A DNA stretch of 34,422 bases, taken from the NCBI GenBank assembly GCA_016871915.1, contig VHBP01000022.1, positions 1 through 34,422 of the forward strand. The letters are read 5' to 3'. Origin of the DNA: Gemmatimonadota bacterium (lineage in GTDB: Bacteria > Gemmatimonadota > Gemmatimonadetes > Gemmatimonadales > Gemmatimonadaceae). This document shows, in pieces, positions 2,297-8,810 of this stretch. Each line of letters opens with the position of its first letter. The first letter of the stretch is position 1. Position numbers and translations under genes: made by a program. Under the pieces are notes generated by a model. That model searched no databases. It was not told the origin of the DNA and saw only the letters and a program-made list of their open reading frames with translations.

Positions 2297-5200
2297 TCAC
2301 TGCGGCACGACCTCGTCGGCGAGATCGTCATCCATCACCGGCGCGGGCCGCGTCGCCGGTTTCTCCTCCGCCTTCGGGACGATCGGTGCGAGCCCGAGCT
2401 TCTGGAGCTCGTCGTTGAGCCGCTTGAGATCGGTGTCGAACACCTTCTTGAGCTGCGTCAGCTGCACGCCGAGCGCCGTAGAGAGCTCCGCGAAGACCTG
2501 CTCCGACTGCGCCGTGGGAAGATAGGGCCCCGACGCCACCACGCCGTTCAGCGCCGCGATCCGGTTGTTGAGGCGCACCGGGAAGTTGAGCGGATCCTGT
2601 CCGCTCTGGTTCTTCACCTGATAGACCTCGTGCTCGACGCGCGACATCGCCGAGTCGATCGCCGTCGCCATCGGGCGGAGCTGCGGCGCGCCCGCGAGAC
2701 GGTCCTCCATCTCACCGCGGACCCACCGGACCTGCTTCACCGCGTCGTTCGCCTCGGTGGTCTTATCGCGGATCTTCATCAGGAAAGTGAACTGCGCGAG
2801 GAGATCGGCCTCGGTCGCTGTGGTGCGCGGATCGTTGAGGAGCTTGAAGGTCGCGACCTGCAGGGCCGCGGTCCCGACCGTCATCCGCACGGTGTAGGTA
2901 CCGGCCGGCGCCATCGGGCCGCGCACCGACCCCGCCCACATGATCATCCCACGGAAGGCGCTCGCGTCGGGATAGCGCATATCCCAGGCGAAGGTGTTCA
3001 TCCCTGCCGCATTCGCCGGGCGCTGGGCCGCCCCGCCCCCGAAGCGGCCACCCCCCGGCGCGTTCTGCGCCGCCGCCCGCTCCGCCGCGAGCGCCGCCGA
3101 GTCAGCGGACTCATACGTCTTGATCACCTGACCATTGGGCGCGAGGAACTCGAGCTTCACCGGCTGCCCCGCCTGCGCGAGGTGATAGCGCACGATCACC
3201 CCCGTCGCCGGGTTCTGACCGGGATTCGTCCCCGAGGCGCCGGGACCACGCATCCCACCACCCCCGAAGCCCCCGCCCCACTCGATGCGATAGGCATCGC
3301 GCGGCGCGAATAGGTGCGCCGGCTTGGCGAAGACCGCCGCGGTCGTCTGGCGGAGCGCCGAGAGATCGTCGAGCACCCAGAAGGAGCGGCCGTGGGTCCC
3401 GGCGATCAGATCGCCTTCCTTCACGACGAGATCGTGCACCGGCACCGGCGGGAGGTTCCCCTGCAGGCGCTGCCACTGCGCGCCGTCATCGAACGAAACA
3501 AAAACCCCGCGCTCGGTCCCCGCGTAGAGGAGCCCGCGCCGCGTCTCATCCTCACGGATCACGCGCGTGAACTCGTCGCCCGGGATCCCGGTGACGATCT
3601 TGGTCCAGGTCGCTCCGAAGTCGGTGGTCTTGTAGAGCAACGGCTGGAAGTCGTCGAGCTGGAAGCGGTTCGCGGCGAGATACGCCGTGCCGTCAGCAAA
3701 GCGTGAGGTCTCGATGATCGAGATGCGGGAGAAGTCCCCGATCCCCTTCGGTGTCACATTCTTCCAATTCTTCCCGCCATCGCGCGAGAGCTGCACGTAC
3801 CCATCGTCCGTCCCGACCCAGAGGACGTTCTTGTTCTGGTAGGATTCGGCGAGGGTGAAGATCGTCCCGTAGGTCTCGACCCCGGTCTGGTCCTTGGTGA
3901 TCGGGCCGCCGGAGGGACCGAGGGTCTTGGGGTCGTTGCGCGCGAGCGGGGGGGAGATGATGTCGAACGACTGCCCCTCGTTCGTCGAGCGGAAGAGGCT
4001 CGAGCCCCCCGCATAGAGCACCTTCGGATCGTGCATCGAGATCACGATCGGGAAGGTCCACTGGAACTTGTACTTGATGTCCTCTGACGACCACCCCATC
4101 GGGTTGTCGGGCCAGGCGTTGATGTTCCGCTCGAGCCCGGTGCGCATGTCCTTGCGCGTGAGGTAGCCGGAATAGCTCCCGGCATAGACGATGTCGGGGT
4201 TCTTGGGGTCAGCGGTCACATAGCCCGACTCGCCACCGCCAGCGTCATCCCAATCGCCGATCCCGATCCCCCCCGCCTGCCGGCTCGGGCCGCAGAGGGT
4301 GGAGTTGTCCTGCTGGGCGCCGCAGACCTTATACGGAAAGTGGTTCGTGGCGGAGACGTGATAGAACTGCGCGGTGGCGAAGTCCTGATCGGTCCAGGTC
4401 TGCCCGCCGTTGAAGGAGACGTTGGCGCCGCCGTCGTTGGCCTGCACCATCCGCTGCGGATCGTTCGGCGCGATCCAGAGATCATGGTTATCGCCGTGCG
4501 GGACGCTGATCTGCTGCCGCCAACTCTTCCCACCATCGGTCGAACGGAAGAACGAGACGTTGAGTCCATAGACGACGTTCGTGTCCTTCGGGTCGGCGAC
4601 AAGGCGCGAGTAGTACCAGGCGCGCTGGCGGAGATTGCGATCGCCGTTGAGATACTGCCAGGTCGCGCCCGCATCATCAGAGCGATAGGTGCCACCCGAA
4701 TCGGCTTCGATCTGCGCCCAGATCCGCTTCGGGTTCGCCGGCGAGATCGCGAGCCCGATCTTCCCGAGGAGTCCCTTCGGGAGCCCGGGATTATTGGTGA
4801 TCTCACGCCAGGTGGTCCCACCGTCGGTCGACTTCATGATCCCGCTGCCGGGCCCGCCAGAGTTGAGCATCCAGGGGCGACGATACGCATGCCAGAAGGT
4901 CGCGTAGAGCGTGTTCGGGTCGCTCGGATCCAGGATGAGATCCCAGACGCCCGTGGAGTCATTGCGATAGAGCACCTTCGTCCAATTCTTCCCGCCATCG
5001 GTCGTCTTGAAGACGCCACGCTCTGGATTGTTACCGAAGGCGTGCCCGAGCGCTGCGACATAGACGATGTCGGCATTCGTAGGGTGTACGCGCACCCGCC
5101 CGATGTGCCGCGTCTCCTTGAGCCCCATCGAGGTCCAGGTGCGGCCAGCATCGGTCGTCTTCCAGAGCCCGTCGCCATGCGAGGTGTTCCCGCGGATGTC

Positions 5201-5569
5201 GGTCTCGCCGCCGCCGACATAGACGATATCGGGGTTTGATTCCGCGACGCCAATCGCACCGATCGTCCCACCGAAGGCGCGATCGGTCATCGGTTGCCAG
5301 TTCACCCCACCATCGACGGTCTTCCAGACCCCGCCGCCGGTGGTCCCCATCCAGTACTCGTTCACGCGGCTCGTGGAACCGGCGACGGCGACGGAGCGGC
5401 CACCACGCGCCGGACCGAGCTCACGCCATCGCACCTGGGAGAGCGACGCGGCGGGGATCGTCTGGGCGATGAGTGGGGCCGCCGCGCCCAGCAGCGCCAG
5501 CCCGAGCACGAGCCGAATGGACCAGAGCGAACCGAGAGAACGACGGGACACGGACAGGTGCGTCATCAT
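2297..5569 (-). CDS. Exported VPS10/sortilin-like Asp-box (BNR) propeller protein
   Basis: About 1090 residues. It begins with a Sec signal peptide (SIRLVLGLALLGAAA, likely cleaved near LIA-QT). The next 700 or so residues carry many Asp-box/BNR motifs, including TTDGGKNWTKV, STDGGTTWREI, SDDAGATWQYL, STDGGKSWRQQ, SRDGGKNWKNV and TTDFGATWTKI, as in VPS10/sortilin-type beta-propellers. A Gly-rich linker (about residues 780-860) leads to a mainly helical C-terminal region rich in charged residues. Such proteins are often labelled glycosyl hydrolase, but I see no catalytic signature and do not assign an activity; a role in protein or peptide binding outside the cytoplasm is only a guess. The ATGATG at 5569-5564 overlaps the TGA of the HD-GYP gene. 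An in-frame ATG at 5632 would put 21 non-signal-like residues in front and is unlikely. Confidence 0.85.
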   Translation of the reverse strand: MMTHLSVSRRSLGSLWSIRLVLGLALLGAAAPLIAQTIPAASLSQVRWRELGPARGGRSVAVAGSTSRVNEYWMGTTGGGVWKTVDGGVNWQPMTDRAFGGTIGAIGVAESNPDIVYVGGGETDIRGNTSHGDGLWKTTDAGRTWTSMGLKETRHIGRVRVHPTNADIVYVAALGHAFGNNPERGVFKTTDGGKNWTKVLYRNDSTGVWDLILDPSDPNTLYATFWHAYRRPWMLNSGGPGSGIMKSTDGGTTWREITNNPGLPKGLLGKIGLAISPANPKRIWAQIEADSGGTYRSDDAGATWQYLNGDRNLRQRAWYYSRLVADPKDTNVVYGLNVSFFRSTDGGKSWRQQISVPHGDNHDLWIAPNDPQRMVQANDGGANVSFNGGQTWTDQDFATAQFYHVSATNHFPYKVCGAQQDNSTLCGPSRQAGGIGIGDWDDAGGGESGYVTADPKNPDIVYAGSYSGYLTRKDMRTGLERNINAWPDNPMGWSSEDIKYKFQWTFPIVISMHDPKVLYAGGSSLFRSTNEGQSFDIISPPLARNDPKTLGPSGGPITKDQTGVETYGTIFTLAESYQNKNVLWVGTDDGYVQLSRDGGKNWKNVTPKGIGDFSRISIIETSRFADGTAYLAANRFQLDDFQPLLYKTTDFGATWTKIVTGIPGDEFTRVIREDETRRGLLYAGTERGVFVSFDDGAQWQRLQGNLPPVPVHDLVVKEGDLIAGTHGRSFWVLDDLSALRQTTAAVFAKPAHLFAPRDAYRIEWGGGFGGGGMRGPGASGTNPGQNPATGVIVRYHLAQAGQPVKLEFLAPNGQVIKTYESADSAALAAERAAAQNAPGGGRFGGGAAQRPANAAGMNTFAWDMRYPDASAFRGMIMWAGSVRGPMAPAGTYTVRMTVGTAALQVATFKLLNDPRTTATEADLLAQFTFLMKIRDKTTEANDAVKQVRWVRGEMEDRLAGAPQLRPMATAIDSAMSRVEHEVYQVKNQSGQDPLNFPVRLNNRIAALNGVVASGPYLPTAQSEQVFAELSTALGVQLTQLKKVFDTDLKRLNDELQKLGLAPIVPKAEEKPATRPAPVMDDDLADEVVPQ

Positions 5570-6762
5570 GTGAGTTGGGGGAGTGAGGGAAGGAGAGAGG
5601 GTTCGGTCGTCGAGGCAGCGCGTGTCTCCCACCGGCGCATCATCGAAAGGAACGCCAAGGCAATATCGGCATCGAACTCGACGCCGGCACCCTGCTCGAT
5701 GATCGAGAGGATATCGTCGTGAGCCATCCCCTCGCGAAAGGGCCGCACGGAGGCCAGTGCATCATACACATCACAGACATGGACGATAAGACTGGCGACA
5801 TGACAGGCGCGGGCGAAGAGGAGGCGGGGGTACCCACGACCATCGATCCAGATATGGTGTTCGTATGCGACCGTCGCCGCGAGATCGAGTCGCGTGTCGC
5901 TCTCATAGATGATGCGCGCGCCCTCCTCGGGATGCTGACGGATCAGGGAGAGCTCCTGATCGGTGAGCCGACCGGGCTTGACGAGTACCTCGGTGGGGAT
6001 GCGGACCTTGCCGATGTCGTGCAACAGGGCGGCCAGCCCGAACGCCCGGACATCCGCGGCCCCACGCCCTAGCCATTCGGTGAGCGCCATCGTGAGCACC
6101 GCGACATTGATGGCGTGCGTCGTGAGGTACTGGTCGACCGGAGCCATCGTCACCAACGGGAGGACCACCGCCGGCTCCGCATGCATGGCCGCCGAGAGGG
6201 AGCGGATCACCGATTCCGCCTCCAGCAAGGGGATCTGTCCGGTCGTTCGGACCTCGTCGTGGATGAAGCGGACCGCCGCTCCCTCCTCCATGAGCGGCAC
6301 GACGGCCCGCCGCCTCGCATCGGCCAGCGAGTCCGACGGCTCGGCCTTCTGTTGATACCGCTGATCGCGGATCCCCACCGCGCCCCATCGGATCGTCGAG
6401 CGGCGCCGATGACTCGTCACCGACGAATCGACCGTCGGGTGATAGAGGAGATCGTACACCTCGCCGAGGAAGGCCTCGAGATCCTCTTGGGTGGTCTCGG
6501 GATCGATCTCGACGCGCTGGACCCCGACGGTGTCGAAACGTGCCGCCCAATCCCACCCACGAAGCGATCGGAGAGGCAGGTCGTTGTAGATCGCTTCATC
6601 GCCGATGAAGGTGAAGCGCGGGCGCACATCCGTCTCCATCAAGCGGCGCAGCGCCTCGTAGGCCTGTGCCATCGCACCCTGTCGTCCAGGGTGCTGCGCG
6701 CCATACAACTGCATGGATGTGAGGGCCTTGGTGAGGGCCGTCAGGAATCTGCCTGCCGCCAT
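5566..6762 (-). CDS. HD-GYP-type phosphohydrolase with HEAT-partner-like N-terminal module
   Basis: 398 residues. Residues 1-110 form a module with SMQLYGAQHPG and VEIDPETTQEDLEAFLG that resembles the N-terminus of the product of the gene just upstream. The HD domain follows: HAINVAVLTMAL, then LLHDIGKVRIP with His248 and Asp249, then KPGRLTDQELSLIRQHPEEG, then a GYP region (WIDGRGYP, Tyr311). HD-GYP proteins commonly hydrolyse cyclic di-GMP to pGpG or GMP. The usual HHExxDGxGYP appears here as HHIWIDGRGYP: the Glu is replaced by Ile while the histidines and GYP remain. Activity is therefore plausible but not certain. No membrane segment is visible, so it is probably cytoplasmic. The ATG shares its A with the TGA of the upstream gene (TGATG), implying coupled translation. 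Confidence 0.85.
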   Translation of the reverse strand: MAAGRFLTALTKALTSMQLYGAQHPGRQGAMAQAYEALRRLMETDVRPRFTFIGDEAIYNDLPLRSLRGWDWAARFDTVGVQRVEIDPETTQEDLEAFLGEVYDLLYHPTVDSSVTSHRRRSTIRWGAVGIRDQRYQQKAEPSDSLADARRRAVVPLMEEGAAVRFIHDEVRTTGQIPLLEAESVIRSLSAAMHAEPAVVLPLVTMAPVDQYLTTHAINVAVLTMALTEWLGRGAADVRAFGLAALLHDIGKVRIPTEVLVKPGRLTDQELSLIRQHPEEGARIIYESDTRLDLAATVAYEHHIWIDGRGYPRLLFARACHVASLIVHVCDVYDALASVRPFREGMAHDDILSIIEQGAGVEFDADIALAFLSMMRRWETRAASTTEPSLLPSLPQLT

Positions 6763-8810
6763 CAGCCTCCCCTCCGCCGCACCATCGTCGCCGCCCGCAC
6801 CGCAGGATCATTGCTCATGGCCGCGAGGGTCAACACCTCACGGCCCGCGGGGTGTGACCCCCAATGCACCGCCACACCCTCGACCGCTGCGAGGAGCTCG
6901 GGCGTGGTCGGCAACAGCGTGGCGCGGCGGAGGAGTCGGGCGGGCCGCATCACGCGACTCGCCAGCCAGATCGGGGTCTCCGGTGCCGTGTGACCGGCCA
7001 CCGCCCGGACCGCGAGCGCGCGCATCTCGGGACGCAACAACTCATCATCGGCCCGCACCTTGAGGACGGAAGCGACCTCTCGCGGACAGTGCCCCATGGC
7101 CGCGGCCAAGGACAGTCGGACGATGGTCTCATCAGGGTCCACGAATGCCCAGGCCATGGTCGCTCCCTGCTGCCGCGCATCGCGGAGCAACTCGCGGATC
7201 GCCTCGCGCCGTACCCCGACATCGGGATGCGTACTGAAGGCGCCCGGATCGTAGGCCGACGTCCAGGTGGGATGTCGTCCCAAGAGGACGAGTAGCGACC
7301 GCAGCGTCGTCCAGCGGACGATGGTGAGATGCGGCACGAGGGCCCGCGCGACCGGCGCGCCGATCTGCTCCAGCAACCCGAGATAGCGCTCGATCGTTGC
7401 TGGATCCGTGACCGCCTCCAAGGCATCGACGAGGACCGGGACCGCCGCGATCCCCATCCGCGTTATCAGCCGCTCGACGGAGCGGTGCGGAAAGGGGTGG
7501 CGCCGGGTGAGCGCATCGAGCCGGGCAGGCGTCGCGATCGCCGCCCAGAGGGCATCCCGCATCCAGGCCGCTGGCGCCTGATCCACGAGATCCATCAGCC
7601 CCTCGATCTCGCCACGCGTGATCATCTCGTCGATCGCCGGCCACATGGAGCTACCGAGGGTCTCGATCTCCAATCCGATCGCGAGCACACGCGACGGCTC
7701 GACCGGGGTCGCCTCATCCGTCGGCCTGGCCATGGGGTCACGCGCCGCCAACCGGTCGAGTGCGGCCCGATACACCGAGGGATCGGTCTCACCGCGGGTC
7801 CACCGCTCGATCAACTCCGTCACCTGCTGACGCAACGCGACATCGGCGATGGCGGCCTGGTCCCCCGTCCCCTCCTCTGCCTGTGAGGCAAGCTTGGAGA
7901 GCATCCCCCGCATCGCCGTGGAGATGGTCTGCTGCGAGACGGTGGCCGCCGCCACCGCGAGGGCGAGGACCGCGTTCGTCGTCACGGCACCCACCACCTC
8001 CTGCAGGAATCGTCGGCGCCGCGTCGCGTCGCCACCCAGATGCAAGAGCCGCTCGAGCGTCCTCTGCCCGAGCTTCTGCACCAAGGCGGAGACCCGGAGA
8101 CGGGTGCCGCTCGCATCGCGGCCCCCTCTGGTGTTAATCGCCATCGACAGCTGATACAGGACGATCATCACCGTCTGGTCGTACTCGGTGTCGCCCTCAT
8201 GGCGCTCGATCGCCTCGGCCACGGTGGCGGGGAGGGCATGCTCGATTTCGGTCCCGGAGACCGCGAGGTCGGGGAGCGCGATCTGGACGAGGCGGATCCA
8301 GAGTGCCTCCGCATCATCGATCGAGAGCGTCTCCCCGTCGGCCAACGCGAGGGACGAGAAGCTCAGCGCCATCAACCGGAGATGCGGCCACTGCGCGAGG
8401 ACGTCGGGGCCTTCGAGTCCGAGTGGACGGTCGATCCCCGACCCAGCGGTCCCGAGCGTCTGCATCAGGCGTTCGAGCTCGTCGACCGTCACCCCAGGGG
8501 TGATGCGGATCGATCCGATCTGATGTTGATGCAAGCGCGTCGCCAACGCCCGTAAGACCGGATGGTTCGGGTCGGTGGCGATGGCATCGACGATCAGCTG
8601 CATGGGCGCCACGCCGATGACGAGGGCGGGCCGCGTGGCGAGTACCGCGTTCAATCGCCCGAGCACCCCGGTCGACACCGTATCGAGGATGGGGTGCCCA
8701 GGGGGATAGATCGCCGCCTTCACCATGCCGACCGAGAATTCGACAAGTAGATCCACCAGCTCCTTGGGGAGCGTGGGGCCTGCAGCGGTCGTGACGGAGG
8801 GTCCCTCCAT
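6762..8810 (-). CDS. HEAT-like repeat protein, partner of the HD-GYP protein
   Basis: 682 residues, with no signal peptide or membrane segment. The first 120 residues (AAIYPPGHPILD, RPALVIG, then IRITPGVTVDELERLMQTL) resemble the N-terminal module of the downstream HD-GYP protein in order and spacing. The rest is almost wholly helical, with repeated units such as LVDALEAVTDPATIERYLGL, VGVRREAIRELLRD and EMRALAVRAVAG that look like HEAT or ARM repeats. No catalytic motif is recognised; a scaffold or protein-protein interaction role is inferred. It is the first gene of a minus-strand operon (HEAT, HD-GYP, VPS10, GNAT) and is divergent from the GMC oxidase gene. Translation probably begins at the ATG at 8810, six bases after a -10-like hexamer. 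Confidence 0.7.
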   Translation of the reverse strand: MEGPSVTTAAGPTLPKELVDLLVEFSVGMVKAAIYPPGHPILDTVSTGVLGRLNAVLATRPALVIGVAPMQLIVDAIATDPNHPVLRALATRLHQHQIGSIRITPGVTVDELERLMQTLGTAGSGIDRPLGLEGPDVLAQWPHLRLMALSFSSLALADGETLSIDDAEALWIRLVQIALPDLAVSGTEIEHALPATVAEAIERHEGDTEYDQTVMIVLYQLSMAINTRGGRDASGTRLRVSALVQKLGQRTLERLLHLGGDATRRRRFLQEVVGAVTTNAVLALAVAAATVSQQTISTAMRGMLSKLASQAEEGTGDQAAIADVALRQQVTELIERWTRGETDPSVYRAALDRLAARDPMARPTDEATPVEPSRVLAIGLEIETLGSSMWPAIDEMITRGEIEGLMDLVDQAPAAWMRDALWAAIATPARLDALTRRHPFPHRSVERLITRMGIAAVPVLVDALEAVTDPATIERYLGLLEQIGAPVARALVPHLTIVRWTTLRSLLVLLGRHPTWTSAYDPGAFSTHPDVGVRREAIRELLRDARQQGATMAWAFVDPDETIVRLSLAAAMGHCPREVASVLKVRADDELLRPEMRALAVRAVAGHTAPETPIWLASRVMRPARLLRRATLLPTTPELLAAVEGVAVHWGSHPAGREVLTLAAMSNDPAVRAATMVRRRGG

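Follow-up and report, generated by a model that had tools for sequence, protein, structure and literature searches.

The DNA analysed here (hereafter the window) is a stretch of 34,422 nucleotides from a Gemmatimonadota bacterium (assembly GCA_016871915.1, contig VHBP01000022.1, positions 1 to 34,422). Its reverse strand carries two overlapping genes, one for a protein with a HEAT-type helical array and the other for a protein with an HD-GYP domain, both of which appear to begin with the same N-terminal module. HD-GYP proteins constitute one of the two classes of cyclic di-GMP (c-di-GMP) phosphodiesterases, and the role of their uncharacterised N-terminal regions is largely open. The two genes and their junction are as follows:

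6762..8810, reverse strand: gene of the module-HEAT protein, an open reading frame (ORF) of 682 aa with an ATG start and the stop TGA at 6764-6762
5566..6762, reverse strand: gene of the module-HD-GYP protein, an ORF of 398 aa with the start ATG at 6762-6760 and the stop TGA at 5568-5566
6760..6764, reverse strand: TGATG junction, in which the HEAT stop TGA (6764-6762) and the HD-GYP start ATG (6762-6760) have one base (A) in common

Both ORFs (HEAT 8810-6762, HD-GYP 6762-5566) and their overlap by one base lie exactly where a preliminary description of this DNA had placed them. Full-length relatives of the HD-GYP protein, at ~31-53% identity, are found in most of 60 related genomes, and orthologs of the HEAT protein in 43 of 61. 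According to the module search, the window genome harbors exactly two copies of the module, namely those of the HEAT and HD-GYP genes.

The shared N-terminal module

Direct comparison of the two window proteins by BLASTP revealed no N-terminal similarity, and therefore profiles were built from their orthologs (40 HD-GYP and 33 HEAT N-terminal segments). When these two profiles were aligned by hhalign, the probability was 96.5% (P 7.9e-10) over 96 columns. Searches with hmmsearch were reciprocal: the HD-GYP N-terminal profile finds the HEAT family (best domain E 4e-9), and the HEAT N-terminal profile finds the HD-GYP family (best domain E 1e-9). The observed profile-profile score of 60.9 was reached by none of the 100 column-shuffled HEAT profiles (maximum 21.1), and far lower scores were also obtained with the reversed profile (12.6), with nine segments from elsewhere in the HEAT protein (14.6 or less) and on comparing the HEAT N-terminus with the HD domain (15.6). 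Related genomes contain a second, diverged pair of this kind (pair B, described below), and the four N-terminal classes, that is, the HD and HEAT sides of pair A (to which the window genes belong) and of pair B, all match mutually (P 6e-11 to 2e-5). It is almost certain from these comparisons that the HEAT and HD-GYP proteins carry a homologous module of ~105 residues, located as follows:

8445..8765, reverse strand: module of the HEAT protein, residues ~16-122 (module search match 8448-8762)
6445..6750, reverse strand: module of the HD-GYP protein, residues ~5-106 (module search match 6454-6759)

The E-values of these two matches (3.0e-29 and 3.6e-31, respectively) are not independent, as the module profile contains both window sequences.

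The AlphaFold model of the HD-GYP module, based on 13 sequences from both sides, has a predicted local distance difference test (pLDDT) value of 86.6 and a predicted template modelling score (pTM) of 0.79, and consists of helices 2-19 and 25-44, strands 49-53 and 56-59, helix 72-78, strand 81-86 and helix 92-107. The HEAT protein was modelled from HEAT-side sequences only, in an alignment without HD-GYP sequences, and its module (pLDDT ~62-86) is composed of helices 16-34 and 40-57, strands 63-67 and 72-74, helix 84-95, strand 100-103 and helix 109-120. The preliminary description had named differing N-terminal folds as the outcome that would speak against a common module; in a comparison of element order, without superposition, the two models were found to have the identical arrangement helix-helix-strand-strand-helix-strand-helix. 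Together with the significant profile-profile alignment, the clean controls and the reciprocal hidden Markov model (HMM) matches, this confirms the common N-terminal module that had been noticed from the letters.

The individual motifs by which the module had been recognised fared unequally. Y-x-x-x-HP is present in both proteins (residues 20-25 of HD-GYP and 35-40 of HEAT), with Tyr being the only near-invariant residue across 35 module sequences of the wider family. RP followed by IG also occurs in both, but the distance from R to IG differs (6 residues in one protein, 5 in the other), and the family as a whole does not conserve this element. The late motif, at HD-GYP 86-95 and HEAT 103-112, reads I-x-P-x-x-T-x-x-(D/E)-L and is one residue longer than originally written.

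No Pfam or NCBIfam model is common to the 35 module sequences, and the N-terminal 120 residues gave no match to the named sensor or receiver domains of HD-GYP proteins (REC, PAS, GAF, DUF3391). DUF3391 was also considered as the identity of the module and rejected: the window protein has no match, and in pair B the match is only sub-threshold and located after the module. A sequence search of the PDB revealed no chain that matches the module over its full length, the best hit (E 7.6e-4) being to 35 positions in a designed protein, and Foldseek found no module match under E 0.001 in the PDB and a viral structure library. Viral contigs yielded HD-GYP-like matches, and the module was not found in them. 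In the open-access literature, where the few papers containing both terms were judged by title, no description of an HD-GYP/HEAT pair was found. As far as the libraries show, the module and the two-gene unit are undescribed, while their HD-GYP and HEAT parts are known.

The HD-GYP domain

Pfam HD_5 (PF13487) matches residues 211-367 of the window HD-GYP protein with an E-value of 3.8e-22, and the chain of PmGH (PDB 4mcw) aligns to the protein with an E-value of 1.8e-23. On this basis the domain is delimited as follows:

5638..6153, reverse strand: HD-GYP domain, residues ~204-375 (Pfam HD_5; ligands by alignment to PmGH, 4mcw)

The metal ligands of PmGH and the division of HD-GYP domains into Y/F and E/D-T-G subfamilies are as described in PMC4159591. 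All seven metal ligands are kept in the window protein (H216, H248, D249, H277, H302, H303 and D331), as are K252, D334 and the GYP motif (G310-Y311-P312); D210 (by position) and K252 are the equivalents of the putative catalytic residues D183 and K225 of PmGH. The eighth ligand, E185 of the E/D-T-G trinuclear subfamily, is replaced by Y212, and the window protein is therefore placed in the tyrosine/phenylalanine subfamily of PMC4159591.

In 29 orthologs, the first six ligands and the GYP motif are invariant, and D331 is kept in 25. The other four (L053 260-1450, L057 3432-4544, L059 3423-4547 and L060 368-1486) have lost both D331 and K252, with the HEAT partner still present, and these pair-A proteins may be pseudo-enzymes within the paired unit. 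The pair-B HD-GYP proteins retain all seven ligands in 18 of the 18 aligned. Judging from its residues, the window HD-GYP domain is likely to be an active c-di-GMP phosphodiesterase, and the c-di-GMP-type phosphohydrolase predicted earlier is supported by the HD_5 match and the intact ligand set.

The HEAT-side protein

6771..7703, reverse strand: C-terminal helical (HEAT-type) array, residues ~370-680 (AlphaFold; homology to pair-B partners)

Pfam gave no match to the window HEAT protein at E<=1. The C-terminal regions of pair-A and pair-B HEAT proteins are homologous (hhalign P 1.8e-9, 258 columns), and the pair-B proteins match Pfam HEAT_2 directly (E 6e-10 to 5e-22), as do HEAT-side partners in other loci (up to E 3.7e-31). 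Despite the Pfam miss, the HEAT label was accepted because of this C-terminal homology to the pair-B HEAT_2 proteins. In the AlphaFold model of the whole protein (mean pLDDT only 59.6), an all-helical array follows the module, and the Foldseek hits of the array from this same model are importin, ARM and HEAT solenoids, with E-values of 5.6e-5 to 1e-3 and a TM-score of only ~0.2. The helical scaffold postulated as the partner can thus be specified as HEAT-type, HEAT_2 being detected directly in paralogous and cross-phylum partners.

Conservation of the gene pair

The HEAT gene is located immediately upstream of the HD-GYP gene in 21 of the 21 loci examined. Other neighbours recur in at most 6 of these loci, and the only conserved one is a GGDEF gene in the genus of the window genome. 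Of 33 pair-A junctions, 30 have a HEAT stop codon that overlaps the start codon of the HD-GYP gene, with starts picked by proximity (offset -4 or -1, in one case -8; the window junction is -1). Pair B has the same gene order and comprises an HD-GYP protein of ~500 aa, 23-30% identical to that of the window, and a HEAT protein of ~600-700 aa with the module and HEAT_2. Of the few genomes with a single partner, those checked were G050, in which the contig ends within the locus, G037, in which a run of N interrupts it, and G060, in which a truncated HD region remains while the HEAT gene is lost, as is the HD module.

One locus in Armatimonadota contains two tandem pairs. In addition, one Armatimonadota-group assembly combines the two modules and an HD domain, degenerate in this case, in a single ORF:

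L266 3436-5823, reverse strand: fused ORF of 796 aa (two modules, degenerate HD domain)

In alignments with the separate proteins of a relative, the first part of this ORF matches the HEAT-side protein, except for the HEAT C-terminus, which is lacking, and the remainder matches the HD protein; coming from a single assembly, the fusion is no more than a hint. Taken together, the HEAT and HD-GYP genes very probably form one functional unit.

Distribution of the module across bacteria

Breadth was assessed by whole-genome searches with the module alignment A3, and a copy was regarded as paired if another lay on the same strand within 2.6 kb. Several of the unpaired copies are found at the end of a contig, and the paired fractions given are therefore minimum values for fragmented assemblies. 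In the order of the window genome, 126 of 136 copies (at E ~1e-10 or better) are paired in 37 genomes; the fractions are 46/46 in Armatimonadota (12 genomes), 96/110 in Nitrospirota (41 genomes) and only 44/78 in Planctomycetota (31 genomes), where 10 of the copies lie two to a polypeptide. A profile scan with the HD-GYP alignment was used for breadth as well, the matches listed being HD-GYP proteins of many phyla and not close orthologs.

A HEAT-family first gene followed by an HD second gene was confirmed in Nitrospirota, Fibrobacterota, Omnitrophota, Armatimonadota and Myxococcota, and also in a further Deltaproteobacterium, in Eiseniibacteriota and in Planctomycetota. The partners were identified by the HD profile on the HD-GYP side and by HEAT profiles or Pfam on the HEAT side; the first gene of a Phycisphaerales pair gave no Pfam signal. 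Other proteins with the module, a search for which the preliminary description had suggested, are thus found across many phyla, mostly as adjacent pairs.

The module also occurs in other settings. In Planctomycetota, four proteins from three genomes (L275, L276, L277, L278) consist of AAA_16, two tandem modules and then HEAT_2, and a fourth genome (G389) with a tandem-module protein was recognised from coordinates only. The unpaired module protein at L259 2496-4259, forward strand, immediately precedes the gene of a MoxR-type AAA ATPase, and that at L256 3146-4831, forward strand, lies near a DUF58/VWA gene. This MoxR/DUF58 neighbourhood is a different partnership of the module.

History of the duplication

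In the module tree (~107 columns) the four classes separate, but support for the deep branches is lacking (values of 75 or less). Approximately unbiased (AU) tests reject neither the grouping of the HD and HEAT sides of pair A (p 0.72) nor that of the HEAT sides of pairs A and B (p 0.63); the module tree therefore cannot decide on an origin within the locus. That a duplication of the module occurred, as had been proposed, is indicated by the sequences; a recent origin within the locus would be one of the orders of events compatible with the AU tests, which reject no grouping.

The c-di-GMP context

In six genomes of the same genus as the window, coordinates place a GGDEF gene just downstream of the HD-GYP gene; GGDEF was confirmed by Pfam in two of the six, one of them with a weak PAS match. 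The window has no GGDEF gene at that spot, where a BNR/VPS10-type gene (2297-5569, reverse strand) directly follows the HD-GYP gene:

5564..5569, reverse strand: ATGATG, in which the HD-GYP stop (5568-5566) overlaps in-frame ATGs (5569, 5566) of the BNR/VPS10-type gene

In the window, all three genes may be co-translated; this coupling to the BNR/VPS10-type gene is local and is not conserved elsewhere.

In three Acidobacteriota, module proteins of 890-976 aa have PilZ at the C-terminus, with an E-value of 3.8e-11 in one of them and as a sub-threshold match at the corresponding position in the two others:

L260 1373-4300, reverse strand: module-PilZ protein, PilZ sub-threshold, weak HEAT_2
L262 2961-5630, forward strand: module-PilZ protein, PilZ sub-threshold, weak HEAT_2
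L263 2108-4918, forward strand: module-PilZ protein, PilZ clear

These proteins unite scaffold and c-di-GMP receptor within one chain. As read from gene neighbourhoods and domain matches, the ties of the module to c-di-GMP through GGDEF and PilZ are independent of the HD domain.

The window genome itself (98.75% completeness) has one GGDEF protein, with a GGEEF motif and a hydrophobic N-terminus (L253 2608-3603, reverse strand), and a single HD-GYP match; EAL and PilZ were not detected in it. The genome is therefore close to a minimal c-di-GMP circuit of one GGDEF and one HD-GYP.

Interpretation

Near-constant adjacency, the overlap of stop and start codons, the multiplication of pairs as pairs and the existence of two-module chains are strongly consistent with pairing of the two proteins. 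Through translational coupling, a protein made of the module and a HEAT-type solenoid would be produced together with one made of the module and an HD-GYP c-di-GMP phosphodiesterase domain. The two homologous modules would then most likely associate as a pseudo-symmetric heterodimer, so that the phosphodiesterase would sit on the HEAT scaffold, and the scaffold, by recognising a target or signal, might localise or gate c-di-GMP hydrolysis. Regarding the separate steps, a physical HEAT/HD-GYP complex is reasonably probable, whether its contact is made through the modules is evenly balanced, and we infer that the HEAT partner may control catalysis and that c-di-GMP would be the substrate. As an overall account, docking of a c-di-GMP phosphodiesterase to a HEAT scaffold by means of paired modules is favoured by a narrow margin. 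Of the two roles for the module that the preliminary description had left side by side, sensor or docking, docking is favoured; its observation is confirmed, and its interpretation is partly supported.

Several findings weigh against this account. Unpaired module-HEAT proteins exist, five of them in the order of the window genome, and 34 of the 78 planctomycete copies are unpaired, so that the module is not dedicated to HD-GYP. Catalysis seems dispensable in some units, as shown by the loss of D331 and K252 in 4 of 29 orthologs. The c-di-GMP circuit of the window genome would be minimal, with one GGDEF and no EAL or PilZ found. Lastly, the fused ORF comes from one assembly, is without the HEAT C-terminus and has an HD domain that looks degenerate.

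The main rival explanation is that the module docks both proteins, side by side and with no contact between them through the module, to a third shared partner, such as a factor at the cell pole or a machine of the membrane or envelope. This would explain the unpaired HEAT proteins beside MoxR/DUF58 and the STAND-like occurrences; the presence of the module on these proteins, and on PilZ proteins, is what would be expected of a generic adaptor. It is nevertheless unlikely, since no conserved third gene accompanies the pair, other neighbours being found in at most 6 of the 21 loci, and pairing between modules is favoured by their two-by-two occurrence and by the chains with tandem modules. Similarly unlikely is a module acting as a small-molecule sensor that each protein uses separately, with adjacency resulting from a common signal. 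The Y-x-x-(G)-H-P turn that joins the first two helices and is conserved in pair A would suit such a sensor, but HP is lost in pair B (YPVENA, YLPNNP), a near-invariant Tyr alone is unusual for a ligand pocket, and no structural match to a known sensor was found.

That the HD-GYP protein is mainly a c-di-GMP-binding or scaffold component, not an enzyme, and that the pair is a receptor complex, is improbable: the four orthologs without D331 and K252 that retain the paired gene, together with the degenerate HD domain in an Armatimonadota-group third pair and in the fusion, agree with it, but the seven ligands are complete in the window protein, in 25 of 29 orthologs and in 18 of 18 pair-B proteins. 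Chance or convergent likeness of two short helix-rich N-termini, to which the missing BLASTP match might point, is ruled out for practical purposes by the shuffled, reversed and sliding-window controls, the profile-profile P of 8e-10, the reciprocal HMM matches and the same predicted element order.

As its two genes are found next to each other in many phyla, the HEAT/HD-GYP pair appears to be a widespread signalling unit of two proteins, so far undescribed, which spans Nitrospirota, Armatimonadota, Planctomycetota, Myxococcota, Fibrobacterota, Omnitrophota, Eiseniibacteriota and the phylum of the window. More tentatively, and with the balance slightly against it, the module may serve in at least seven phyla as the pairing domain of two-protein c-di-GMP units and recur, in cis or in trans, on PilZ receptors and STAND-like ATPases; it would then be a dimerising adaptor of general use in bacterial signalling. 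With the shared module and the near-constant partner gene, two 'hypothetical' families become one testable hypothesis, concerning binding and the control of hydrolysis.

Comparison with known systems

Among c-di-GMP receptors of the PilZ type, the Acidobacteriota proteins bear the module together with a C-terminal PilZ domain, whereas the window protein is without PilZ and no such domain was detected elsewhere in its genome. Proteins with DUF3391 (PF11871) and HD-GYP resemble the window protein in having an uncharacterised domain N-terminal to HD-GYP; however, DUF3391 has no match in the window protein, and the pair-B match is sub-threshold (E 0.03-0.08) and located after the module. Like the HEAT-repeat proteins recognised by Pfam HEAT_2, the window HEAT protein has a predicted C-terminal helical solenoid; unlike them, it is too diverged to be visible to Pfam, bears the module and is tied to HD-GYP. 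The STAND-type ATPases with HEAT repeats in Planctomycetota share tandem modules and HEAT_2 with the pair, but are single large polypeptides with an ATPase and no HD-GYP, unlike the two window proteins. With PmGH (PDB 4mcw), a member of the E/D-T-G subfamily, the window HD-GYP protein shares the HD and GYP motifs and the seven ligands, and it differs by a Tyr in place of E185, which fits the Y/F subfamily. Compared with known HD-GYP phosphodiesterases in general, it has a double His followed by Ile (HHI) where Glu (HHE) is usual, an N-terminal module not represented in Pfam or NCBIfam, and a near-constant HEAT partner gene.

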